Shown: in pieces, positions 4,223-57,279 of the stretch
Layout of the letters: every line of letters begins with the position of its first letter
How positions within the stretch are numbered: position 1 is the first letter of the stretch
NCBI GenBank assembly: GCA_022072145.1
Contig: JAJVIG010000019.1
Location: forward strand, 1 to 64,000
Reading direction: 5' to 3'
DNA: 64,000 bases
DNA from: Pseudomonadales bacterium
GTDB lineage: Bacteria > Pseudomonadota > Gammaproteobacteria > Pseudomonadales > UBA5518
The notes under the pieces: generated by a model
What the model was told of the DNA's origin: nothing
Database searches by the model: none
What the model saw: the letters and a program-made list of their open reading frames with translations, nothing else
Position numbers and translations under genes: made by a program

Positions 4223-4660
4223 ATGAACGACCTCCCCCCGCCCCGCCCATCGCGCCGGCATCGCAGTGCGCTGCTCGCACTCGCGACCGCCGCCTGGCTG
4301 GGCGCGCTCTACGCGCTGCGTTTCGGCTGGGTGGAGATCCCGGCCGAAGCAGATCCCTGTCTGCGCGCGCTGCGCTCGCCGGCGTGCCGCGTGCGTGCGG
4401 GTTTCGGGCTGCTGGTTCACCTGCAACTGTTCGGTACTGCGGCGATCGTGCTCGCGCTGGCCGCGCATCTGCGGCTGGGACGCTGGCGCCTGCCGTGCGC
4501 GCTGCTCGCGCTGTGGTTCGCGCTGCTCGCGCTGGTGCTCTACAACGTGCACTACGGTGCGCCCGCGGCCGTGCTCGCCGTGCTCGCGCTCGCCGATCTC
4601 GGCGTGTTCCGTGACGGCACCACCCGCAGGTCCGGGCTGCGCCCGGACATGTTCGTGTAG
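4223..4660 (+). CDS. small membrane protein, unknown function
   Basis: A 145-residue protein with about four hydrophobic segments: ALLALATAAWLGALYALRF, GLLVHLQLFGTAAIVLALA, PCALLALWFALLALVLYNV and APAAVLAVLALADLG. I do not recognise the family. Two Cys (PCLRALRSPACR) lie in the first extramembrane loop. The ATG at 4223 is preferred over an upstream ATG at 4133, which lies inside the divergent GH5 gene. Its last ten codons and its TAG stop lie inside GTAG-type palindromic repeats, so the natural C-terminus has probably been rewritten by repeat insertion. It sits between the GH5 and GH17 genes, and a role in the same polysaccharide system is possible but unproven. Confidence 0.65.
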   Translation: MNDLPPPRPSRRHRSALLALATAAWLGALYALRFGWVEIPAEADPCLRALRSPACRVRAGFGLLVHLQLFGTAAIVLALAAHLRLGRWRLPCALLALWFALLALVLYNVHYGAPAAVLAVLALADLGVFRDGTTRRSGLRPDMFV

Positions 4661-4740
4661 GTCCGGGCTGTGCCCGGACACCAATTGTTCGGCCACAGGC
4701 CGAACCTACGGGGACATGTTCGGCCGCAGGCCGAACCTAC
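4626..4740. repeat. GTAG-REP cluster A, four palindromes
   Basis: Four 23-base elements. Two on the + strand have the stem GTCCGGGC / GCCCGGAC: 4626-4648 (head GCAG) and 4657-4679 (head GTAG). Two on the - strand have the stem GTTCGGCC / GGCCGAAC: 4687-4709 and 4718-4740, both with GTAG heads. Each element is a tetranucleotide head plus an 8-bp stem with a 3-base loop. The cluster lies between convergent genes. The TAG at 4658-4660 stops the + strand gene, and the TAG at 4739-4737 stops the - strand gene. Confidence 0.9.
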
Positions 4741-6242
4741 GTTTGACCGGCCGGGACGCGGGTTCGCTTACGCAGCAGACCGGCTGTCATCAGGCCCATC
4801 GTCGCTATCCAGCCCAGCGCCTGCGTGTTGCGCGGCGTCTCCTGCCAGAGCACGACCGGAATGCCGATCGCGAGTACGCCGCCGAGCACGCGGCAACGCT
4901 CGCGCCAGGGCCCGTCCGGCGGCGCGCACAGCCACGCCGCCAGCGCCGGCGCTGCGAACGCCCCGAGCGGGAAATGCCGGTAGCGGGCGTCGAAACACAG
5001 GCCGAGCATCTCGACGGTCGCCACCGCTGCGGCCACGCCGATCACGCCGTCGTGCCAACGGGCGCGCTGCGCACCGGCCAGGCGCCGGCAACCGACCCAC
5101 GCCGCCAGCAGCGCCAGCACCGCGAGCGCCACGAACCAGCCGCTTTCTGCCTCCGTGCGCGCGAACAGCCGCATCTGCTGCAGATGCAGCACGCTGCCGT
5201 TGGCGGCGAGCAGCGCGAGCAGCGCCGCCGGCCACGAACGCAACGCGCCGGCGCTCAGCACCAGCCCCAGCCACGACGCGAACGCCACCGCGGCACAGGT
5301 GCGCCATTCCGGCAGGTTCGACACCTCCCCACGCAGCACGTGCTTGTCACGCCGCGCGGTGTCGAACAGGCCCCAATAGCCGCCGACCGCGCCTTCCTGC
5401 ACGCGCTTCCATGGCTGGTCGAAGGCCTCGATCAGGTTATAGCTCCAGTCCGCCGACTCGGCGCGCTGCACGAAGCCGCGCACGAAGCGTGCCTCGTTCA
5501 CGCGTCCCGGCACGGCGCCCTCGCGCTGGCGCCCCTGCGACGGCCAGCCGGTCTCACCGATCAGGATCGGCATGCCCGGAAAGGCACGCGCGGTCGCCTC
5601 GTGCGCGCGGGTGACGGCCTCGATCGCCGCGTCGATGCCGCTGGGATCGTTTTCCCAGTACGGCAACAGGTGGATGGTGACGAAATCGGTGCCGGCGGCG
5701 ATCCCGGGGTTCTGCAGCCAGAATTCCCACACGTCACCGTAGCTGACCGGCTGCGGGACCGCGGCACGCACGCGCTGCAGCATCGCCAGCAACTGCGCGG
5801 CGGTACGCTCGCGGCGCAGAAGCACCTCGTTGCCGACCAGCACCGCGCGCACCACCTCCGGATGGCGGTTCGCCAACGCGATCACCCCGGCGATCTCGCG
5901 CTCGGTCTCGGCGTCGTCACGCCCCACCCAGGCACCGGCGATCACCGTCATGCCGTGCGCGCGCGCGACCTCGGGAACGCGCTCCATGCCGCGTACCGAA
6001 TAGATGCGCACGCAACCGACCTGTCCGGCCAGCAGTGCGAAATCGCGCTCGAGCCGCGCATCATCTATGCGGAAATCACCGGGATGCTCGTCGCCGGTGA
6101 ACGGGGTGTACGAAACACAGTGCAGGCGTCGATCGGGCGCGAGTTCGCCGGGGACGTGGTGCGCGCGACCGAGCAGCCACCAGAAAGCCACGCTGGCCAC
6201 CAGAGCGGCGAGCAGCACCGGCGGCGCCGCGGCGCGTGGCAT
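4737..6242 (-). CDS. GH17-domain membrane protein
   Basis: A 501-residue protein. It starts with a signal-anchor (APPVLLAALVASVAFWWLLG), followed by an exported GH17 (beta-1,3-glucanase fold) domain at about 38-315. About seven membrane segments fill the C-terminal third. The GH17 acid/base Glu is in LVGNEVL (E139) and the nucleophile in IGETGWPSQG (E230), so the site looks intact. EAFDQPWK and GGYWGLF are further GH17 hallmarks shared with the neighbouring NdvB-like protein. GH17 domains of this type act as transglycosylases that branch or cyclise beta-1,3-glucans in proteobacteria (family knowledge). The gene starts one base after the stop of the NdvB-like gene, so the two are almost certainly cotranscribed and may act as partners. 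The stop codon TAG belongs to a palindromic repeat. Confidence 0.82.
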   Translation of the reverse strand: MPRAAAPPVLLAALVASVAFWWLLGRAHHVPGELAPDRRLHCVSYTPFTGDEHPGDFRIDDARLERDFALLAGQVGCVRIYSVRGMERVPEVARAHGMTVIAGAWVGRDDAETEREIAGVIALANRHPEVVRAVLVGNEVLLRRERTAAQLLAMLQRVRAAVPQPVSYGDVWEFWLQNPGIAAGTDFVTIHLLPYWENDPSGIDAAIEAVTRAHEATARAFPGMPILIGETGWPSQGRQREGAVPGRVNEARFVRGFVQRAESADWSYNLIEAFDQPWKRVQEGAVGGYWGLFDTARRDKHVLRGEVSNLPEWRTCAAVAFASWLGLVLSAGALRSWPAALLALLAANGSVLHLQQMRLFARTEAESGWFVALAVLALLAAWVGCRRLAGAQRARWHDGVIGVAAAVATVEMLGLCFDARYRHFPLGAFAAPALAAWLCAPPDGPWRERCRVLGGVLAIGIPVVLWQETPRNTQALGWIATMGLMTAGLLRKRTRVPAGQT

Positions 6243-12627: not shown

Positions 12628-12742
12628 CGCAAGTTGGGCCATGGCCGAACGCGTCCCGTAGGTTCGGCCTGCGGCCGAACATGTCCCCGTAGGTTCGGCC
12701 TGCGGCCGAACATGTCCCCGTAGGTTCGGCCTGCGGCCGAAC
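12628..12742 (+). repeat. GTAG-REP cluster B, three tandem copies plus a relic
   Basis: Three identical 23-base elements at 12658-12680, 12689-12711 and 12720-12742, all in the same orientation with a period of 31 bases. The stem is GTTCGGCC / GGCCGAAC with loop TGC and the head is GTAG; the spacer ATGTCCCC is repeated too. A degenerate fourth copy (head lost, one stem mismatch) lies at 12628-12650. They fill the gap between the convergent ahpF and SDR genes. Confidence 0.92.
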
Positions 12743-14060: not shown

Positions 14061-16280
14061 ATGATGAATGTGCGACAGTTCAACTCGCGGAAGACCGGCA
14101 TCGCAGCGCTCGTGGGCGCCGCCATCGCGGCTTCCGTACCCGGCATGGCGCTCGCACAGGACGCGGCCGCAATCGAGGAAATGATCGTCACCGCGCAGAA
14201 GCGCGAGGAGCGGTTGCAGGACGTGCCGATCGCGATCAGTGCGATCTCGAAGGCGCAACTGGAGAAACGCGGCGTCGAGGACGTGCTGGACCTGAAGGCG
14301 CTGGCGCCCAACCTGCTGGTCAGCAAGTACCCGAACAGCAACGTGGTGTCGCAGGTCGCGATCCGCGGCGGCGTGACCGTGAACGCCGCGATGTACTGGG
14401 AGCCGAGCACCGGCATGTACCTCGACGGCGTGTACCTCGGCAAGGCCGTGGGCTCGGTGTTCGACGTGGTCGACCTGGAGCGCGTCGAGGTGCTGCGCGG
14501 ACCGCAGGGCACGCTGTACGGCCGCAACACGATGGCCGGCGCGGTGAACCTGATCACCAAGAAGCCGACCGGCGAGTTCGGCGGCTCGGCGAAGCTCGAA
14601 CTCGGCAACTACGGCTACCACACGGAACGCGTGTCGGTGGACTTGCCGAAGATGGGCATCGCACGCGCCTCGTTCGCGTTGCGCTCGGAGAAGCGCGACG
14701 GCCTGGTGAAGCTCAGCGACTCGAGCCCCGGCGACGAGCTTGACAGCCGCGACAAGCTCGGCGCGCGCTTCGCGCTCGCGCTCGACATCGCCGACAACTT
14801 CGTCGCCGACTACGCCTACGACTACACCGACATCGACCAGGCGCCGCCGCACAGCCAGCTCTACCACGTGACGCCGACGACCGCGCTGTTCACCGAGGCC
14901 GCGACACTGGCATCGACCAAGCGCCTCGGCAAGGTCGCCACCAACTGGCCCGGCTACGAGCAGCTCGAACTGGAAGGCCACGCGCTGACGCTGACCTGGG
15001 AAATCGACGAGCACAACACGCTGAAGTCGATCAGCGCGTACCGTGACCTGAAAAACGACGACTCGGTCGACCTCGACGGCACGCGTCTCACCATCGCCAC
15101 CGCGAACCGCATCTCCGACTTCGAGCAGAAGTCGCAGGAACTGCAACTGGTCGGCGACGTCGCCGACCTGAACTACGTGGTGGGCCTGTACTACTACAAG
15201 GACGAAGGCGACACGGTCAACCCGCACGTGTTCTTCTTCGGCACCGACAGCTCCGAATACGGTTTCGGCGCCGAGGCGAAAGCCGCCTACGCCCAGCTCG
15301 ACTGGCATGCCACCGAACAGCTCACGCTGAGTGGCGGCCTGCGCTACACCGACGAGGACAAGGACACCTGGCGCTTCAAGAGCGCCACCATCCCCAGCCA
15401 GCGGATTCCATTCACCTCGGCGAGCGAGTCGTTCTCCGACACCACGCCGATGGTCAGCGCCGCGTACGCGTTCAGCGACGAACTAAACGTCTACGTGAAG
15501 TACTCCGAAGGCTTCAAGAGCGGCGGCTTCCAGGGCGAGTCCGCGACCGCAGCCGAGGCCGTGGTCCCGTACGATCCCGAGAAACAGTCGACCTGGGAAA
15601 TCGGCGCCAAGTCCACCCTGCTCGACGGCACGCTGCAGCTGAACGCGGCGGTGTTCCACAACACGATCGAGGACATGCACGTCACCCAGTTCTCGGGAAG
15701 CCCGGGCGTCTCGTACGTGCGCAACGCCGGCGAGGCGACCACGCAGGGCTTCGAGCTCGAGGCCACCTGGGCGCCGATCGAGCAGCTGCGCCTGCAGGCG
15801 AGCTACGGTTACCTCGACGCCGAGTGGGACGAGTTCATGGAGGCACCGAAAGTGGGCCAGCCGGTTACGAACGTCGCCTCGAACCGTTCTTTCCCGCACG
15901 CGCCTGAGCACACGCTGAACGTGTCGGCCGACGCGCTGCTCGGCGCCACCGAGTGGGGCGAGATCCGCGCTTTCCTCGACTGGAGCTACACCTCGGAGTT
16001 CAATGCGTACGCATACCAGATCGACCAGGTCGATCCGGCGCGCGCCGTCGCGGGCAACTCCGAGATCGACAGCTACGGCCTGCTGAACGCGAAGGTCTCG
16101 CTGTCCGAGATCCCGCTCGGCGACGGTGCGGGCGAGTTCGCGCTGTGGGCACGCAACGTGACCGACGACCGCCAGCCGGTGAACTACATCGACTTCGGAC
16201 CCGGCTTCTTCGCTGGCTACCGTCTCGCGTACTACCAGGAACCGCGCACCTACGGCGTGTCGTTCGTCTACGACTGGTAA
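14061..16280 (+). CDS. TonB-dependent outer-membrane receptor
   Basis: A 739-residue receptor. A signal peptide ends at ASVPGMALAQD. The TonB-box/plug start follows as IEEMIVTAQKREERLQDVP, then the plug hallmarks VEVLRGPQGTLYGRNTMAGA. The beta-barrel ends with an aromatic residue (VSFVYDW). The long variable plug loops and the barrel resemble receptors for hydrophobic or aromatic substrates in marine and steroid-degrading proteobacteria, though the ligand cannot be told. GAGGAGA precedes the ATG pair at 14061. A strong hairpin terminator follows the gene. It is a clear paralogue of the receptor at 23268. Confidence 0.92.
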   Translation: MMNVRQFNSRKTGIAALVGAAIAASVPGMALAQDAAAIEEMIVTAQKREERLQDVPIAISAISKAQLEKRGVEDVLDLKALAPNLLVSKYPNSNVVSQVAIRGGVTVNAAMYWEPSTGMYLDGVYLGKAVGSVFDVVDLERVEVLRGPQGTLYGRNTMAGAVNLITKKPTGEFGGSAKLELGNYGYHTERVSVDLPKMGIARASFALRSEKRDGLVKLSDSSPGDELDSRDKLGARFALALDIADNFVADYAYDYTDIDQAPPHSQLYHVTPTTALFTEAATLASTKRLGKVATNWPGYEQLELEGHALTLTWEIDEHNTLKSISAYRDLKNDDSVDLDGTRLTIATANRISDFEQKSQELQLVGDVADLNYVVGLYYYKDEGDTVNPHVFFFGTDSSEYGFGAEAKAAYAQLDWHATEQLTLSGGLRYTDEDKDTWRFKSATIPSQRIPFTSASESFSDTTPMVSAAYAFSDELNVYVKYSEGFKSGGFQGESATAAEAVVPYDPEKQSTWEIGAKSTLLDGTLQLNAAVFHNTIEDMHVTQFSGSPGVSYVRNAGEATTQGFELEATWAPIEQLRLQASYGYLDAEWDEFMEAPKVGQPVTNVASNRSFPHAPEHTLNVSADALLGATEWGEIRAFLDWSYTSEFNAYAYQIDQVDPARAVAGNSEIDSYGLLNAKVSLSEIPLGDGAGEFALWARNVTDDRQPVNYIDFGPGFFAGYRLAYYQEPRTYGVSFVYDW

Positions 16281-23267: not shown

Positions 23268-25526
23268 ATGCACATACGCAACCGCAAGGGCGCCCTCGCG
23301 CTGTCACTGGCGATCTCGCAACTGCTCGCGGCACAGGCCGTGTTCGCACAGGACGGCGCAGCGCCGGCCATCGAGGAGATGGTGGTTACCGCGCAGAAGC
23401 GCGAGCAGAGCCTGCAGGACGTGCCGATCGCAGTCAGCGCCTTCGGCTCCGACCAGATCGAATCGCGCGGCATCACCAGCATCGAGAACCTGACCGCGCT
23501 GGCGCCGAACATCCAGATCAGCAAGGCGCCGGGCAGCGCCACCGCCTCGCAGATCGCCATCCGCGGCAGCGCGCAACAGAACCCGGCGCTGTACTGGGAT
23601 CCGACCGTCGGCATCTACGTCGACGGCGTCTACATCGGCAAGTCACAGGGATCGATCTTCGACGTGATCGACGTCGAGCGCATCGAGGTACTGCGCGGGC
23701 CGCAGGGCACCCTGTACGGGCGCAACACGCTGGCCGGCGCGCTGTCGTTCATCACCCGCAAGCCGAGCGGCGAGTTCGCCGGTTCGGCGACCTTCGGCCT
23801 CGGCAACTACGACGAGCGCTCGACCAAGGTGTCGGTGGACCTGCCGCGCGTCGGCATCGCGAGCGTATCGTTCGGCCTGCAATCGCTGCAGCGCGACGGC
23901 TGGGTCGACGTCGATGGTCCCTCGCGCGAGGCAGCGAACCGTGACAGCTACGCCGGACGGCTGGCAGTGAACCTCGCGTTCAGCGAGAGCTTCGAGGCCG
24001 ATTACCGCTTCGACCGCACCGACATCGACCAGAAGCCGCCGCTGAACCAGCTCTACCGCAGCAACCTGGATCAATGGGGCATCCCCGGGCTGTTTCCCTC
24101 CCGCGATCGCGAGGACGAGGCGGCGCTCGACCTCGACGCGTACGAGGAATCGCAGGTCGACGGCCACTCGCTGACGCTGACCTGGGAAATCAACGAGCAA
24201 CACACGCTGAAGTCGATCACCGCATACCGCGAGATGAGCTGGGACGACGGTATCGATCTCGACGGCAGCGCGGTGCCGGTCGCGCACACCTTCCGCAACT
24301 CCGACTACGACCAGACCTCGCAGGAACTGCAGCTGGTCGGCGGCGGTGACCGCTGGAACTACGTCGCGGGCATCTATTACTTCGAGGACGACGGCTCCAC
24401 GCTGAACCCGCAGACGTTCTTCTTCGGCACGTTCAACTTCGATTCCCGCTACGCGTTCACCACCGAGTCGCGCGCCGTCTACGGCCAGTTCGACTACCAG
24501 CTGACCGAGGCGCTGACCCTGACGGCCGGGCTTCGCTACACGGAGGAAGAGAAGACCATCGATCGCCTGCTCGGCGTGAACTTCGCGACCGGCACGCCAT
24601 TCATCCCGCTGGTACCGCAGGGAACCGAAGGTTCCGAGGACTTCAGCTCGACGACACCGCTGATCAGCCTGGGTTACCAGCTGAACGACGACCACAGCGT
24701 CTACGCGAAGTACTCGCAGGGCTTCAAGAGCGGCGGTTTCAACGGCGAGTACGGCGTGGTGGGCGATCTCTCGCCCGCGGTGGTCGCGGCGAACGTCGCC
24801 GAGGTGCAGACGCCGTTCAAGCCGGAGGAGATCAAGTCCTACGAAATCGGCTACAAGGGCAGCTTCCTCGACGGTCGTGCGCAGCTGAACGCCGCCGCGT
24901 TCTTCAACGAGGTGGACGACATGCAGCTGTCGATCTTCACCGCGCAGGGCGCTTCCGCCTCGGTGGTGCGCAACGCCGGCCAGGCCGAGACCAAGGGCAT
25001 CGAGCTCGAGGGCGTGCTGGTCCCGGTCGACGGGCTGCGCCTGCAGGCGAGCTACGGCTACCTGGACGCCGAGTACAAGGAGTTCATGGACGGCGGTGTC
25101 GACCAGGCCGACAACCGCGCGATGATCCACGCGCCCGAGCACGTGTTCAACCTGCTGGTCGACGCGCGCATCGCCGAGACGCAGTACGGCACCTGGCGCG
25201 CGATCGCGGACTATGTGCACAAGGCCTCGTGGTATCCGTACCCGTACCAGCTCGCCGCGAGCGGCACGCTGCCGGCGTACGACGCCACGCAGCCGGTGGC
25301 CGGTGACACCAAGGTGGACTCCGTGGGGTTGCTGAACCTTCGCCTGGCACTGACGGAAATCCCGCTCGGCGAGGGCGAGGCCGAGGCGGCGCTGTGGGTT
25401 CGCAACGCCACCGACGAGGAGCACGCGTCGAACTTCATCGACTTCGGGCCCGGCTTCGGCAATCTGACCACTTCTTACTGGCAGGACCCGCGCATGTACG
25501 GCGCGAGCGTCACCTACCGCTGGTAA
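23268..25526 (+). CDS. TonB-dependent outer-membrane receptor
   Basis: A 752-residue receptor with a signal peptide ending at AAQAVFAQD. The plug starts EEMVVTAQKREQSLQDVP and contains IEVLRGPQGTLYGRNTLAGA. The barrel ends in an aromatic residue (VTYRW). Blocks such as SVDLPRVGIASVSFGLQS, HTLKSITAYREMSWDDGIDL and ASYGYLDAEYKEFM are shared almost word for word with the receptor at 14061, so the two are recent-looking paralogues with probably related ligands. A GC-rich hairpin follows the stop. Confidence 0.92.
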   Translation: MHIRNRKGALALSLAISQLLAAQAVFAQDGAAPAIEEMVVTAQKREQSLQDVPIAVSAFGSDQIESRGITSIENLTALAPNIQISKAPGSATASQIAIRGSAQQNPALYWDPTVGIYVDGVYIGKSQGSIFDVIDVERIEVLRGPQGTLYGRNTLAGALSFITRKPSGEFAGSATFGLGNYDERSTKVSVDLPRVGIASVSFGLQSLQRDGWVDVDGPSREAANRDSYAGRLAVNLAFSESFEADYRFDRTDIDQKPPLNQLYRSNLDQWGIPGLFPSRDREDEAALDLDAYEESQVDGHSLTLTWEINEQHTLKSITAYREMSWDDGIDLDGSAVPVAHTFRNSDYDQTSQELQLVGGGDRWNYVAGIYYFEDDGSTLNPQTFFFGTFNFDSRYAFTTESRAVYGQFDYQLTEALTLTAGLRYTEEEKTIDRLLGVNFATGTPFIPLVPQGTEGSEDFSSTTPLISLGYQLNDDHSVYAKYSQGFKSGGFNGEYGVVGDLSPAVVAANVAEVQTPFKPEEIKSYEIGYKGSFLDGRAQLNAAAFFNEVDDMQLSIFTAQGASASVVRNAGQAETKGIELEGVLVPVDGLRLQASYGYLDAEYKEFMDGGVDQADNRAMIHAPEHVFNLLVDARIAETQYGTWRAIADYVHKASWYPYPYQLAASGTLPAYDATQPVAGDTKVDSVGLLNLRLALTEIPLGEGEAEAALWVRNATDEEHASNFIDFGPGFGNLTTSYWQDPRMYGASVTYRW

Positions 25527-36249: not shown

Positions 36250-38517
36250 ATGACGAAACGACACCATTGCCTTCCCTTCGCGCGCAAGCCGCTCGCCGCG
36301 GGCTCCGTGGCCCTCGCCGCGCTGATCGCCTGCGTGCCGCCCGCACACGCACAGGATGCCCCCCAGGGCGGCGTCGCCGCCATCCTCGACGAGGTGGTGG
36401 TGACCGCCCGCAAGCGCGAGGAAAGCTCGCAGGACGTGCCGATGGCGATCTCCGCGCTGGGCTCGGACCAGATCGAAGCGCTGAAGATCCGTGACCTGAC
36501 CAATCTTTCGGTGCGACTGCCGAACGTCGCGCTCGACGACGTCGGCACCGCGCCCGGCACCGCGAACTTCTCGATCCGCGGCCTCGGCATCAACAGCTCG
36601 ATTCCGGGTATCGATCCCACGGTCGGCGTGGTGATCGACGGCGTCTACGTCGGCCTCAACAACGGGCTGGTGTTCGACACCTTCGACCTGCAGAGCGTCG
36701 AGGTGCTGCGCGGTCCGCAGGGCACGCTGTTCGGACGCAACGTGACCGGCGGCGCGGTGCTGCTGAACACCAAGAAACCCGGCGACACCTTCGAGTTCAG
36801 CGCCCGCGCGGCGATCGACCAGGGTCCCGACGGCGGCCCCAGCAAGTACCTGATGGCCAGCGTCGGCGGACCGGTGAACGACTGGCTCGCCGCGCGCCTG
36901 ACGGCGTACTACAACGACGACGACGGCTTCCTCGAGAACCGTTTCGACGGCAAGGACGTGGGCAAGATCGAGCAGAAGATGATCCGGCCGGTGGTCGTGA
37001 TCACACCCGCAGAGCAGATCGAGCTCACGCTGCGCTACGAGCACAGCGAGAACGAAGGCGACGGCGTGATCGGCCAGAGCCACACCAACGGTTCCGGAGT
37101 CCCGGGTTTTCCGGTCAATTTCGATCGCGACGAGTTCGACGTCTCGATCGACGAGCCGGGATTCCAGGACGCCGAAACCGACGCCTTCACCGCCCAGCTC
37201 GACTGGGACGTCGCCTTCGGCGACGGCACCGTCACCAACATCTTCGGCTGGCGCGAATACGCCGCCGACGGCGTGGGCGACATCGACTCGCAGCCGCGCT
37301 GGATGTTCCACGCACCGTCATGGCTGGAGTACGAGCAGACCAGCAACGAACTGCGCTACAACGGCCGCTTCCGCGACCAGCTGAACGTCACGGCCGGACT
37401 GTTCCTGTTCGAGAGCGAGATCGACTACCACGAGCGCCGCGAACTGCTGGGCGTGGCCACCGGCGGCGTGCGCCCGGGGGCCACGTTCGACGGCGGCGGC
37501 GAGCTCGATACCGAATCGTGGGCGGTGTTCACCAGCATCGACTACGACCTCGACGAGCGCTGGACGCTGAACGCCGGCGTGCGCTACTCGGAGGAGGACA
37601 AGGACACGAAGGTCGCCTCGCTGAGCAAGAACATCAACCGGCCGTGCAACATCGTCGAGGACGGCAACTGCCCCTACGATTTCGAGGACGAGGACAGCTG
37701 GGACAGCCTGTCACCGAAGCTGGGCGTCACCTACGATCTCTCCGACGACGCCCTGCTGTACGCGCAGTGGAGCCAGGGAACGCGCTCCGGCGGCTACAAC
37801 ATGCGCAACACCTCGTTCAACCCCGCCGACCTCCCCGGCCCCTTCGACCAGGAAACCGTCGACAGCGTCGAGATCGGTTACAAATCGACCTTCGGCCGCG
37901 GCAAGCTGAACGCCGCGGTGTTCTACAACACCATCGACGACATGCAGCGCGAGATCAACCTGCCGGGACCGATCGGCGTGATCCAGCTGGTGCGCAACAC
38001 CGCGGAAGCAACCATCAAGGGAATCGAGATCGACGGTACGTTCGCGCTGACCGACAACCTGGTCGCGATCGCCTCGATCGGCGTCACCGACGCCGGTTAC
38101 GACAAGGTGCTGTACGACCTGAACGGCGACGGCGTGATCGGCGGCGCCGACAAGGACCTCGACCTGCCGCGTGCCGCGGAGCTCACCTGGACGGTCGGGC
38201 TGAACCACGACCTGCCGCTCGGCGAATGGGGAACCATGTCGTCGCGGGTCAGTTACGCGTTCCGCGACGAGTCGGCGTACACCGACAACAACCTCGGTAT
38301 CCTGAACGAGCAGGAGCGCGTGGATGCGGGCGTGGATTTCCACAGCGCCGGCGGGCACTGGGTATTCTCGCTGTACGGCCGCAACCTGCTGAACGAGGTG
38401 TTGCACGGCAACGACACCCAGCTGCCGGCGACGATCTCGGGCGTGCCGCTGGGCGGCACCTTCGCGCCGATGTCCAAGGGTCGCCGCGTCGGCCTCGAGG
38501 TCACCTACAACCTGTAG
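36250..38517 (+). CDS. TonB-dependent outer-membrane receptor
   Basis: A 755-residue receptor with a signal peptide ending at VPPAHAQDA. The plug begins LDEVVVTARKREESSQDVP and contains VEVLRGPQGTLFGRNVTGGA. It is of the same broad class as the other two receptors in the window but belongs to a different subgroup: the plug has VDGVYVGLNNG, and the barrel has a Cys pair in RPCNIVEDGNCPYD. The last residue is Leu (VTYNL), not aromatic, perhaps because the TAG stop comes from a palindromic repeat that begins exactly there. AAGGAGAA precedes the ATG. Confidence 0.92.
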   Translation: MTKRHHCLPFARKPLAAGSVALAALIACVPPAHAQDAPQGGVAAILDEVVVTARKREESSQDVPMAISALGSDQIEALKIRDLTNLSVRLPNVALDDVGTAPGTANFSIRGLGINSSIPGIDPTVGVVIDGVYVGLNNGLVFDTFDLQSVEVLRGPQGTLFGRNVTGGAVLLNTKKPGDTFEFSARAAIDQGPDGGPSKYLMASVGGPVNDWLAARLTAYYNDDDGFLENRFDGKDVGKIEQKMIRPVVVITPAEQIELTLRYEHSENEGDGVIGQSHTNGSGVPGFPVNFDRDEFDVSIDEPGFQDAETDAFTAQLDWDVAFGDGTVTNIFGWREYAADGVGDIDSQPRWMFHAPSWLEYEQTSNELRYNGRFRDQLNVTAGLFLFESEIDYHERRELLGVATGGVRPGATFDGGGELDTESWAVFTSIDYDLDERWTLNAGVRYSEEDKDTKVASLSKNINRPCNIVEDGNCPYDFEDEDSWDSLSPKLGVTYDLSDDALLYAQWSQGTRSGGYNMRNTSFNPADLPGPFDQETVDSVEIGYKSTFGRGKLNAAVFYNTIDDMQREINLPGPIGVIQLVRNTAEATIKGIEIDGTFALTDNLVAIASIGVTDAGYDKVLYDLNGDGVIGGADKDLDLPRAAELTWTVGLNHDLPLGEWGTMSSRVSYAFRDESAYTDNNLGILNEQERVDAGVDFHSAGGHWVFSLYGRNLLNEVLHGNDTQLPATISGVPLGGTFAPMSKGRRVGLEVTYNL

Positions 38518-38563
38518 GTTCGGCCTGGGGCCGAACAAATGTCCGGGCACAGCCCGGACCTAC
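38514..38563. repeat. GTAG-REP cluster C, inverted pair
   Basis: One + strand element at 38514-38536 (stem GTTCGGCC / GGCCGAAC, loop TGG) and one - strand element at 38541-38563 (stem GTCCGGGC / GCCCGGAC), heads outward. TAG at 38515-38517 stops the TonB receptor, and TAG at 38562-38560 stops the acyltransferase. Both convergent genes thus end inside the repeat pair. Confidence 0.92.
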
Positions 38564-39456
38564 GCGGCCTGAACAAGGCGCTCCAGCAGTGCGTCCTTGC
38601 GTTCCCACAACGCATTGACCCACTGCTGGAAGTGCAGCCGGTACTCGTCGTCGCGCTCGTAGTCGCGGCCGATGAACTCGCGCGGAATCGCGATCTCCTC
38701 GCAGCGCAGCACCACCCGGCGCACGCGCCCGCACAGCAGGTCGAGGAAATCCGGCACCCCGTCCGGGTAGTGGATCGTCACGTTAAGCAAGGACTGCAAC
38801 TGCCCGCCCATCGCGTCCAGCACGAAGGCGATGCCGCCCGCGCGCGGCTTCAGCAGGTGCCGGAACGGTGATTCCTGCAGCGCGTGCTTCTCAGACGTGT
38901 TGCGCGTTCCCTCGAGGAAATTGAATACCGACACGTGCGCGCCACGGAAACGCTCGCAGGCCTTGCGCGTGGTCGCCATGTCCTGGCCGCGTTTCTCCGG
39001 ATGACACTCGAGGTAGTCACGCGTGTAGCGCTTCATGAACGGGAAATCGAGCGCCCACCAGCACAGCCCCATCACCGGCACCCAGATCAGCTGCTGCTTG
39101 AGGAAAAACTTCAGGAACGGAATGCGCCGGTTGAACTGGTACTGCAGCACCAGGATGTCGACCCAGCTCTGGTGGTTCGAGGTGACCAGGTACGAGCGCT
39201 CGCGATCCAGCCGCTCCAGCCCCTGGACGTCCCAGCGCATGCGCTGGACCAGGTCCATCCAGAAGCGGTTCACCGCGATCCAGGTTTCCGCACAGGCCGT
39301 CATTGCGCGGTTGATCGCCCGGCGTGCCGCGACGAACGGCAGCGTGGCCTTGAGCAGCGCACCGATGAACAGCGGCCAGCACAGCACCAGCGTGTTCACG
39401 AACAGCAGCAGCACGGCCAGCGCTGCACGCAACGAAGAGGGCAGGAAGTTCAGCAT
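38560..39456 (-). CDS. PlsC-like acyltransferase (YihG type)
   Basis: A 298-residue acyltransferase with an N-terminal membrane anchor (about 10-35). The acyltransferase motif reads NHQSWVDILVLQ (the NHx4D variant), followed by PFLKFFLKQQL and FLEGTRNT. These match the YihG/LPLAT branch of lysophosphatidate acyltransferases, which acylate lysophospholipids or related lipids at the inner membrane. Length fits the family. The stop codon TAG is part of the repeat pair shared with the convergent receptor gene. Confidence 0.88.
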   Translation of the reverse strand: MLNFLPSSLRAALAVLLLFVNTLVLCWPLFIGALLKATLPFVAARRAINRAMTACAETWIAVNRFWMDLVQRMRWDVQGLERLDRERSYLVTSNHQSWVDILVLQYQFNRRIPFLKFFLKQQLIWVPVMGLCWWALDFPFMKRYTRDYLECHPEKRGQDMATTRKACERFRGAHVSVFNFLEGTRNTSEKHALQESPFRHLLKPRAGGIAFVLDAMGGQLQSLLNVTIHYPDGVPDFLDLLCGRVRRVVLRCEEIAIPREFIGRDYERDDEYRLHFQQWVNALWERKDALLERLVQAA

Positions 39457-39487: not shown

Positions 39488-41818
39488 TCAGGTGACGATG
39501 AAATCCGCGTAGCTCACGCCGTCCGGATCGCCGTTCAACGTGGCGATCAGCGTGCGGTACACCGTGTCCCCGCCGTTGGCGTCGTAATAGAGGTCGCCCG
39601 TGTCCTTGTCGTACAGGACCTTCACGCTGGCCGACACGGTCGCCGTGCCCGCAGTGCCGGCGAGCTTGATGAAGTGCTTGGCCGCGAGTGCGCCGGTGGT
39701 GGCCAGCGCCCCGAATACCGCGTTCTCGAGTTCGATCGTGTCGTCGACGGGCGTGAAACCGACGATCGTGTCGACGTTCGTGCGCGCGTTCAGCGCCGCA
39801 TCGAAACGGAACACATCGTGTCCGGCACCGCCGGCGAGCGTGTCGTTGCCGGACCCACCGTAAAGCGTGTCGTCGCCGCCGTTGCCGGCCAGCGAATCCG
39901 CGCCACCGAGCCCGGCCAGCCGGTTCGCCGACCCGTTGCCCTTGATGGTGTTCCCGAGCGTGTTGCCGCTGCCGTCCAGCGCCGCGCTGCCGCCCAGAGT
40001 GAGATTTTCGACGTTGTCGCCCAGCGTGTGCGTGACCGTGGAAACGACGCTGTCGGTTCCCTGCCCGGCGAGCTCGGTGATCGTGTCGCCGGCATCGTCG
40101 ATGTCGTAGGTGTCGTTGCCGGTGCCGCCCTTCAGCGTATCGGCGCCGGCGGCTCCGTTCAGCGTGTCGTCACCGCCGAGTCCGAGCAGCAGGTTCGGCG
40201 CCGCGTTGCCGCTCAACTTGTTGTTCATGCCGTTGCCGGTGCCCTCGATCGGCGCACTGCCGGTGAGCACCAGATCGTTCAGATTCTCCGGCAGCATGTA
40301 GTCGATCGATGCCTTCACGGTATCGGTTCCGCTGCTGAACATCAGTGGATTCAGCACGCGAAAGACGTCGGCAACGCCGTTCGTGTCCACCAGTGGACCA
40401 AGCAGATTGCCGGCTTCGCTGGCGAAGGTGATGTAACGCCCATCGGGCGTGATCGACGGCTCGCTCGAGTGACCGTTGGCTTCGACGCCAGCGCCATCGG
40501 TGCTGACGCGCGCGATCGCGCCGGTCAGCATATCCTTCACGAACACATCCCAGACACCATTGCTGTCGCCCCAGACCAGGTTGCTCGCTTTGCTGGCGAA
40601 CACGACGTAGCGTCCATCGTCGCTGATTCCAGGCATGACGCTGTCACCGTCGGCCGCCGCACCGAAGGCGTCGGTACTCGCGCGCACGATCTGGCCAGTC
40701 GCGCGATCCTTCACGAAAACGTCTTCGCTCATCCAGGAATCACCCGGGACGAGATTGTCGGCCGCGCTCGAGAACACCACATAACGAGCGTCCGGAGTCA
40801 TCTGCGCACCATCGGCTCTCAGGTTCGCCTGCCCCTCGTCGGACGAGGTGTTGACCCGCGCGACCGCGCCGGTCAGCAGATCCTTCACGAACACGTCCAG
40901 GTCAGCGTTGGTGTCACCCCCAACCAGATCGTCGGCGTAACTCAGAAACAGGACGAAACGGGCATCGGGAGTGATTTGCGGTTGGGCACTCCAGCCGTTT
41001 CCCTGCAGCCCGTCGCGATCCGAACTGATCAGGCGGGTTTCCCCGGTCAGTCGATCCTTCAGGAACACATCCGCAGTCGAATTCCAGTCGCCCGCGACGA
41101 GGTTCGATGCCCAGGACTCGAAAACCACATAGCGACCGTCCGCCGAAATGTCGGCGTTGCCGCTAGTTCCATTTCCCTCCGTTCCTGACGTGCCGGTGCT
41201 GACCCGCTCGACGGTGCCGGCCGCCAGATCGGTGACGAAGACGTCCGACATGGAGTTGCCGTCGACAGCAACGAGATTGGACCCCGCGGTTTCGAATGCC
41301 GCGAAGCGACCATCGGCGGAAAGCGCCGGGCTGGAAACCTCTCCCAAAGCGGGAACACCTTCCCAGTAGCCGGTATTGAGGACGCGCACCTCGCCGGTGA
41401 CCAGATCCTTCAGGTAGACATCCGTGCCGCTGCCGTCGGCATCCTCGCTGGAAAGGTTCTCTGCCCCGCTGGCAAACACTGCCAGCCGTCCATCGCTCGC
41501 CAGCCGCACGTCAGCGCTCGGGCCATCGGCCTCCCCGCCGCCCGAGGTCGTGCTGATGCGCACGATCCCGTTGCCGATGAACGGCTCCCAGACCAGGTCG
41601 CCCGGATCGTCGACGATGTAGGTGTCGTTGCCGTGCCCGCCGATCAGGGTGTCGGCGCCGGTGCCGCCGTCGAGCGTGTCGTCGCCGTCGTCGCCGAACA
41701 GCAGATCACCGCCGAGCAGTCCCTTCAGCAGATCGTTGCCCGCAAAGCCGTACAAGGCATCGCCGGCATTGCCGCCGCTCAGCGTGTCGGTACCACTGGA
41801 ACCCTTCTTGCGCAGCAT
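39488..41818 (-). CDS. RTX protein with seven-repeat propeller core
   Basis: A 776-residue acidic protein. Calcium-binding RTX nonapeptide blocks lie at both ends: about 14-66 ([30 protein letters not shown]) and about 545-680 ([38 protein letters not shown]). Between them are seven repeats of roughly 57-60 residues, each with a pattern like [17 protein letters not shown] followed by DVFVKDxLTGxxxRVST. Seven such units suggest a seven-bladed TolB/WD-like beta-propeller. There is no N-terminal signal peptide; a C-terminal type I secretion signal is likely. No type I secretion genes lie in the window. GGGGAGG precedes the ATG at 41818. Function is probably adhesive or surface-related (inference). 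Confidence 0.82.
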
Positions 41819-46557: not shown

Positions 46558-47631
46558 ATGGAACGCACGATGAGCACCACAGCGCTACGTAGATCACCGC
46601 AGGCCGTGCCGGCGGATTTCGCGCTCACGCTGCTGCAGGACGCCGCCGCGATCGGCGAGGAGCCCGATCTAATCCTGGAACGGCTGCGACTGCCGTTTCG
46701 CATCGACGACCTGCGCCACGGGCGTGTTGCCACGCTGCCCGACGCGCAATTCGTGCAGCTCTACCGCGAGTGCATCACGCTGCTCGCCAACCGCGCCAAC
46801 CGCGAACGCAATCTGCCTCCGATGAGCAAGGACGAGGTGGACATGCTGTGCTACTGCGTGATCACCTGCGCGAACCTCGAGGAGGTGATCCTGCGTGCGG
46901 CGCGCTTCTGCGCGATGCTCGGCGGTCGCGCTGGCAAGCTCTGGCTGGACACGGAGAAGGACACCGCGACCTTCCACATGCAGACCTTCCGTTTGCCGAA
47001 CAGCGTGAGCGGGCTGCTCGCCGACCTCACCGGGCTGTCGTTCTACCACCGGTTGTACAGCTGGTTGATCGGTGAGGAGATCCCGATCGAGGGTTTCGGC
47101 GTGATCTACGACAACCGCGGTGACGAGGTCACGCTGCCGCGCCTGTTCCACCACCCGATCCTGTACGCACAGCAAGACAACCACTTCTGCTTCCCCGCGC
47201 AGTACCTCGGCAAACCCGTGGTGCGCAGCTACCAGCGCCTGGTCGAACTGCTGGCCGTGTTCCCGTTCGACGTGATGCACGGACCGGGTGGGCAGCACTG
47301 CTTCTCGGAGGCCGTGGAACACCTGATCCTCGGACAACTGGCGCGCGGCGAGCCGATCCCGACCGCCGCCCGGTTCGCGAACGTGTTCAACATGAGCAGT
47401 GCGACGTTCCGCCGGCGGCTGGCCGAGGAGAACGCAACGCTCGGCGACGTCAAGGAGCGCTGCCGGCGCCAGCTGGCGATCGAACTGCTGGGCCCGGAGT
47501 CGCATCTGAAGATCGCCGACGTGGCGCTGCGGCTGGGATTCAGCGATGCGCGCGCCTTCCGGCGCGCGTTCCGCGTGTGGACCGGCGAATCACCGGAAGC
47601 CTACCGTTCCGGCCGCAGCGGCAGCGCGTAG
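46558..47631 (+). CDS. AraC-family transcription regulator
   Basis: A 357-residue regulator with an N-terminal effector domain (about 25-220) and a C-terminal AraC DNA-binding domain (about 255-350). Its signature reads IADVALRLGFSDARAFRRAF. It is divergent from the DegT/AKR/GMC operon across 159 bases and is the natural candidate to control it. An ATG at 46570 is an alternative start. The TAG stop codon (47629-47631) belongs to a GTAG palindromic repeat. Confidence 0.88.
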   Translation: MERTMSTTALRRSPQAVPADFALTLLQDAAAIGEEPDLILERLRLPFRIDDLRHGRVATLPDAQFVQLYRECITLLANRANRERNLPPMSKDEVDMLCYCVITCANLEEVILRAARFCAMLGGRAGKLWLDTEKDTATFHMQTFRLPNSVSGLLADLTGLSFYHRLYSWLIGEEIPIEGFGVIYDNRGDEVTLPRLFHHPILYAQQDNHFCFPAQYLGKPVVRSYQRLVELLAVFPFDVMHGPGGQHCFSEAVEHLILGQLARGEPIPTAARFANVFNMSSATFRRRLAEENATLGDVKERCRRQLAIELLGPESHLKIADVALRLGFSDARAFRRAFRVWTGESPEAYRSGRSGSA

Positions 47632-47677
47632 GTCCGGGCTGCGCCCGGACATTTGTTCGGCCACAGGCCGAACCCGC
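47628..47677. repeat. GTAG-REP cluster D, inverted pair
   Basis: A + strand element at 47628-47650 (stem GTCCGGGC / GCCCGGAC) supplies the stop of the AraC gene. A - strand element at 47655-47677 (stem GTTCGGCC / GGCCGAAC) has a decayed head. The pair lies between convergent genes, four bases before the stop of the epoxide hydrolase gene. Confidence 0.9.
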
Positions 47678-57230: not shown

Positions 57231-57279
57231 GCAGGTTCGGCCTGTGGCCGAACAATGTCCGGGCACGGCCCGGACCTAC
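57231..57279. repeat. GTAG-REP cluster E, inverted pair
   Basis: A + strand element at 57231-57253 (head GCAG, stem GTTCGGCC / GGCCGAAC) and a - strand element at 57257-57279 (head GTAG, stem GTCCGGGC / GCCCGGAC). They lie between the convergent epimerase and MFS genes but do not supply either stop codon. Confidence 0.9.

Follow-up and report, generated by a model that had tools for sequence, protein, structure and literature searches.

GTAG heads of a REP/REPIN family provide in-frame stop codons to neighbouring genes in a Pseudomonadales genome

The closest described relatives of the repeats reported here are the GTAG-tagged REPs, including SMAG of S. maltophilia, which share with the family of the genome under study (G000) a GTAG head, a short perfect stem and a location mostly between converging or co-directional genes, as described in a main-text section of Di Nocera et al. 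2013 (PMC3733652). One sentence of that text states that REP termini often give a TAG stop to the flanking open reading frames (ORFs), and the section carries no numbers, phase, orthologue stops or contrast with GCAG and GTGG heads, as are given here for the G000 family. The inverted pair of REPs with outward heads that constitutes the repeated unit of REPINs (Bertels and Rainey 2011, PMC3116915) is also found in G000, while the group 3 TnpAREP/REPtron of S. maltophilia (PMC8266576) is similar in that its 23-nt REP has an 8-bp perfect palindrome, a 3-nt loop and a GTAG motif. For TnpAREP, cleavage takes place at CT, and GTAG has been proposed to act as the guide. In a literature search taking in a minority of subscription journals, no published measures of phase, orthologue stops or head-type contrast were found. 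Head-supplied stops as such are already in print (PMC3733652), and what is new, as far as found, is a quantified member of this group, for which the perfect phase and the origin of the stop have been measured.

The G000 REP unit is a short palindrome with an unpaired GTAG at one end, made of the GTAG head, an 8-bp perfect stem and a 3-nt loop, the stem being of either the GTTCGGCC or the GTCCGGGC type. There are 636 copies at no more than 1 mismatch in the genome (3.83 Mb, 66 contigs), a high copy number, and these are mainly extragenic (0 of 189 GTAG-headed copies lie within a coding sequence in the sample described below). Unlike the REPs of PMC3733652, the stem never exceeds two copies in any relative searched: congeners G001 to G005 have 0, 2, 0, 0 and 0 copies of the family, respectively, and no copies were found among 49 other genomes searched in the order. 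Most copies are paired as REPINs, namely head-out pairs with short recurrent spacers. Unlike the REPINs of PMC3116915, the G000 pairs are almost strictly heterotypic, with 71 mixed pairs (one stem of each type) versus 1 like pair genome-wide, window clusters 4626-4740 and 38514-38563 included, whereas tandem neighbours are mostly of the same stem type. A single gene encoding a Y1 transposase domain (Y1_Tnp) was found in the genome. It adjoins five tandem copies of the same REP stem, all GCAG-headed and with a 41-nt period (contig C24, L104 1976-2166), and its best NCBIfam match is the REP-associated tyrosine transposase (REP_Tyr_transpos), with a score of 70.4 bits, which is below the 80-bit cut-off. 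The putative RAYT-like transposase encoded by this gene probably moves the REP/REPIN family. The latter seems to have expanded in the G000 lineage, the evidence on its spread being the copy-number contrast between G000 and its congeners, and it now sits at the 3′ ends of genes, chiefly between converging ones.

The window, i.e. the whole 64-kb stretch of DNA that was analysed, contains five REP clusters flanked by ten gene 3′ ends, five of which are head stops, the TAG of a GTAG head being the in-frame stop codon. The sequence-only reading had assigned such stops to five genes, and the coordinates confirm all five: GTAG heads start at 4657(+), 4740(−), 38514(+), 38563(−) and 47628(+), and the ORFs end on their TAG at 4660(+), 4737(−), 38517(+), 38560(−) and 47631(+). 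For the last gene, given as 46558-47631(+), the head stop at 47631 holds and the start is placed here at 46606. That both converging genes end within the repeat at two clusters, 4626-4740 and 38514-38563, was also correctly read. The five genes are backed by homology or domain content: orthologue ends were found for four of the five, and four have Pfam matches, of which one falls slightly short of the cut-off.

In the first cluster the coding end of a gene for a 145-residue protein with no Pfam match (4223-4660, +) contains a GCAG-headed copy (4626-4648, +), so that the last approximately 10 residues of the protein (RSGLRPDMFV) are repeat-encoded, and the stop, TAG 4658-4660, belongs to the following C-type copy (4657-4679, +). 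Two T-type copies on the opposite strand complete the cluster (4687-4709 and 4718-4740, both −), the second of which supplies TAG 4739-4737 as the stop of a gene for a 501-residue protein (4737-6242, −) with a weak GH17 match, the one just under the cut-off. Three tandem T-type REPs (12658-12742, +) provide no head stop, and the neighbouring genes end with TGA and TAA. The REPIN made of a T-type left half (38514-38536, +) and a C-type right half (38541-38563, −) terminates a TonB-dependent receptor gene (36250-38517, +) with TAG 38515-38517 and a YihG-family acyltransferase gene (38560-39456, −) with TAG 38562-38560; the acyltransferase is four residues shorter than its orthologue in the sister species G002, whose stop is TGA. 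If d is the distance from the first base of the gene stop to the T of the head, the REPIN at 47628-47677 combines a GTAG-headed REP (47628-47650, +), of which TAG 47629-47631 is the stop of an AraC-family regulator gene (46606-47631, +), and a GCGG-headed REP (47655-47677, −), with the gene to its right ending with TGA at d = 7. The REPIN at 57231-57279, with a GCAG head (+) and a GTAG head (−), provides no head stop, and both flanking genes end with TGA, at d = 35 and 50.

The count was extended to a sample of 1.25 Mb, about one third of the G000 genome, in which a simple home-made codon-usage caller gave 1031 genes, and which holds 189 GTAG-headed and 51 GCAG-headed copies. An exact gene stop was found at 67 of the 189 GTAG heads, and none of the 189 is out of frame within a called coding sequence. 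As random phase would give approximately two out-of-frame placements per in-frame one, the 67 : 0 ratio is far beyond chance, and it fits the earlier proposal that termination of translation in one frame is what makes the head tolerable. Head stops account for 67 of 176 TAG stops (38%) and for 6.5% of the genes, approximately 1 gene in 15. Repeats are present in 52 of 151 convergent gene pairs, with a head stop at both, one or no end in 15, 23 and 14 cases, respectively, close to the 13.5, 26 and 12.5 calculated here for independent ends. These counts strongly support the conclusion that, where gene ends face a repeat cluster, about half now have the head TAG as their stop.

Heads that are unable to stop translation are placed differently. 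The first GCAG heads after stops in G000 are found at d = 7, 8, 15, 16, 16, 16, 25 and beyond, and the GTGG heads of G002 at d = 10-42, with none at 0 in either set; most of such non-stop heads near genes lie 7-60 nt past the stop, and three GCAG heads of the sample lie inside coding ends. GTAG heads are rarer than GCAG heads at d = 1-22 (3/189 versus 6/51, p = 0.004, uncorrected and with several tests tried).

The origin of the stop was addressed by comparing C-termini with those of G002, the nearest congener (approx. 80% DNA identity), and of G003 and G004 as outgroups (70-75%), by means of concatenated C-terminal queries and retrieved stretches, which yielded small orthologue sets. At 70-80% identity the tails and spacers are mostly unalignable, so that the orthologues do not represent true empty sites. 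The outgroup orthologues of head-stop genes end with TGA in 21 cases, TAG in 6 and TAA in 3 (n = 30), as compared with 58, 11 and 6 for control genes (n = 75). GTAG stops without a REP head make up 5.3% in G000 (51/964) and 4.2% in G003 (12/283); repeat-free GTAG stops are thus at the baseline level of G003, and the head stops are an excess on top of it. G003 is without the G000 family and has one of its own, in which AGGA is followed by stems such as GCGGGC-CAT-GCCCGC; very few GTAG stops in G003 appear to come from a repeat. When the orthologue extends further, a single substitution would turn the codon facing the head TAG into TAG in only 2 of 27 comparisons (7/51 as background), and point mutation is therefore not the source of the head stops. 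At one convergent pair the G003 stops are 9 nt apart with no repeat, and G000 has a 147-nt array with both stops on heads; at C2:137507 G000 reads ACG CCG TAG and G002 ACG CCG GGC GGG AAG TGA. Most likely, the stop came from the repeat and not from an older TAG, in agreement with the earlier suggestion that repeats may have replaced the original stops, since the relatives mostly have TGA and repeat-free GTAG stops are at baseline.

The reverse order of events, in which the element inserts just 3′ of an existing YGTAG, as IS200/IS605 elements do at a target tetranucleotide, with amber stops being the commonest such site at gene ends, would explain the perfect phase without selection, and is nevertheless considered unlikely. 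YGTAG is occupied about as often at stops (62/97) as within 60 nt beyond them (16/29), which suits a pre-existing GTAG target and speaks against a repeat-supplied stop, and occupancy is low for RGTAG in the 3′ spacer (1/18) and for YGCAG (13/124). Furthermore, TAG is present in 14 of 35 G002 orthologues of head-stop genes (TGA 19, TAA 2; controls: TGA 74, TAG 19, TAA 4). However, REP families of G002 itself often occupy the same gene ends, so that the comparison with this genome, including its TAG excess, is confounded. These other families, mostly GTGG-headed (GTCGGCA-TTCA-TGCCGAC), are seen in the intergenic places where G000 carries its family (L163, L159, L181, L183). Against a pre-existing target are also the lack of clear TAG enrichment in the outgroup orthologues (6/30 versus 11/75 for controls), a GTAG-stop excess over G003 that is about the number of head stops, the replaced codon being rarely one step from TAG, and the published biochemistry, in which GTAG is the proposed guide and cleavage occurs at CT (PMC8266576). 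One head of each REPIN would have to be carried by the element, yet both heads are equally in phase, and a search for YGTAG depletion between genes revealed no specific depletion. The orthologues mostly show TGA where an empty site would be expected to carry the tetranucleotide, although their distance keeps them from serving as true empty sites. Equal occupancy had at one time made a pre-existing GTAG stop the favoured reading, which was demoted by the stop composition, the orthologue stops and the one-step codon test.

As to the proteins, the sequence-only reading had it that gene ends are being rewritten, which holds for the stop codon and mostly does not for the product. With respect to the outgroup orthologues, 14 of 30 G000 proteins are shorter, 9 equal and 7 longer, as compared with 20, 37 and 18 for control genes (n = 75), a difference with p = 0.17, and the mean shift versus controls is approximately +1 codon (95% interval, −0.7 to +2.7). 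Shifts are mostly below 10 codons, and a typical C-terminal loss is of one to eight codons. Seven of 17 head-stop genes, but just 2 of 29 control genes, are shorter than both relatives at once (Fisher p = 0.008, uncorrected and with several tests tried). There is, thus, a modest tendency of head-stop genes to lose one to a few codons, with little change of the proteins. A strong truncation was apparent against G002 alone (21/35 shorter), a genome with repeats at the same ends, and it is not significant against the outgroups. Two outcomes had been set by the earlier reading against its own claim, namely orthologues ending at the same residue with unrelated stops, which are observed, since about 30% of head-stop proteins share the position of their last residue with the outgroup, and a random phase, which is not seen (67 : 0).

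The explanation that is preferred, and that on balance we consider narrowly probable as a whole, combines the spread of the REP/REPIN family to 3′ ends, repeat-supplied stops, selection for frame and an end-by-end capture. A family with active G-TAG heads would settle at gene 3′ ends, mainly between converging genes. Selection may remove out-of-frame placements, which would lead to reading through the palindromes towards the convergent gene, and in-frame placements would persist because the protein is changed by only a few residues. The least certain step is that the takeover would be separate at each end and follow insertion (‘capture’), rather than being part of one insertion event: a short stretch with the old stop would be lost, and the frame would then run into the head. 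The repeat origin of the stop is a firmer claim than the route, for which capture is placed first with low confidence and direct insertion is a close rival.

In the case of direct insertion, which is possible and can be entertained only tentatively, a REPIN with its own GTAG would insert behind a pyrimidine in the last codons, and only in-frame TAGs would survive, with no later capture. A pyrimidine is directly 5′ of the head at 62 of 67 head stops and in 119 of 122 other copies (47/48 at stops in an early smaller set), which suggests the trace of a cutting site and fits an insertion-site mark, thus favouring direct insertion over a later random deletion. Clear cases such as C2:137507 versus G002 and the polarised shortening (7/17 versus 2/29) are also in its favour. 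However, direct insertion predicts that phase-free GTAG heads 1-22 nt past a stop should be at least as many as those in the last codons, and 3 versus 67 are seen; this scarcity just past stops supports capture. REPINs with both heads as stops would need two in-frame hits per event, leading to the prediction of few double takeovers, but these are near the independence expectation (15 versus 13.5), as also expected for capture, and single REPINs of this type are found at C3:86829, C4:75399, C4:78830 and window 38514. That 7 of 30 proteins are longer than in the outgroup is also against direct insertion. A further reading that we regard as improbable is that GTAG heads pull gene ends in, with the transposase cutting behind upstream pyrimidines and rejoining them to the head, so that the spacer would be eroded until the gene terminates at the head TAG; heads of the GCAG and GTGG types would cause no such erosion.

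Positive selection, with a hairpin right at the stop that regulates translation or protects the message, so that in-frame head stops would be favoured for their function, is judged very improbable. In E. coli, translation is reduced by REPs that lie no more than 15 nt from a stop, as reviewed in PMC12306157, and in G000 the head stop is immediately followed by the stem, with strong folding at some head-stop ends (z = −3.0, −4.6 and −2.7). Yet the fourth end that was folded has no significant structure (z = −0.5), no common functional theme emerged among the genes looked at, and copies with GCAG or GTGG heads are tolerated at distances of 7-42 nt.

If the preferred explanation is correct, a selfish repeat would be a steady source of new stop codons, having supplied 38% of the amber stops in the sampled part, and the family would offer a countable and testable case of mobile palindromes settling at gene ends. 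Stop-codon usage in REP-rich genomes would then partly reflect the history of the repeats and not translation alone.

Some further observations concern repeats and their surroundings. Contig C464 of G002 (L224) has approximately 95-96% DNA identity to G000 over C3:201985-203121 and beyond, and is possibly a contamination or the result of a transfer. The head stop is common to C464 and G000, with one repeat behind it in the former and five in the latter, which indicates that the head stop is slower to change than the length of the array. In the window, three large ORFs (14061-16280, 23268-25526 and 36250-38517) are linked by long DNA repeats; as the third encodes the TonB-dependent receptor, the other two are probably related receptors. 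Internal repeats of 27 and 174 nt at 39813-41749, within ORF 39488-41818(−), suggest a repeat-built protein. Finally, a metagenome-assembled genome labelled Verrucomicrobia contains, among the matches listed, a single copy that fits the degenerate REP pattern exactly (L255 159-181), with an imperfect stem, and its TAG also ends an ORF.
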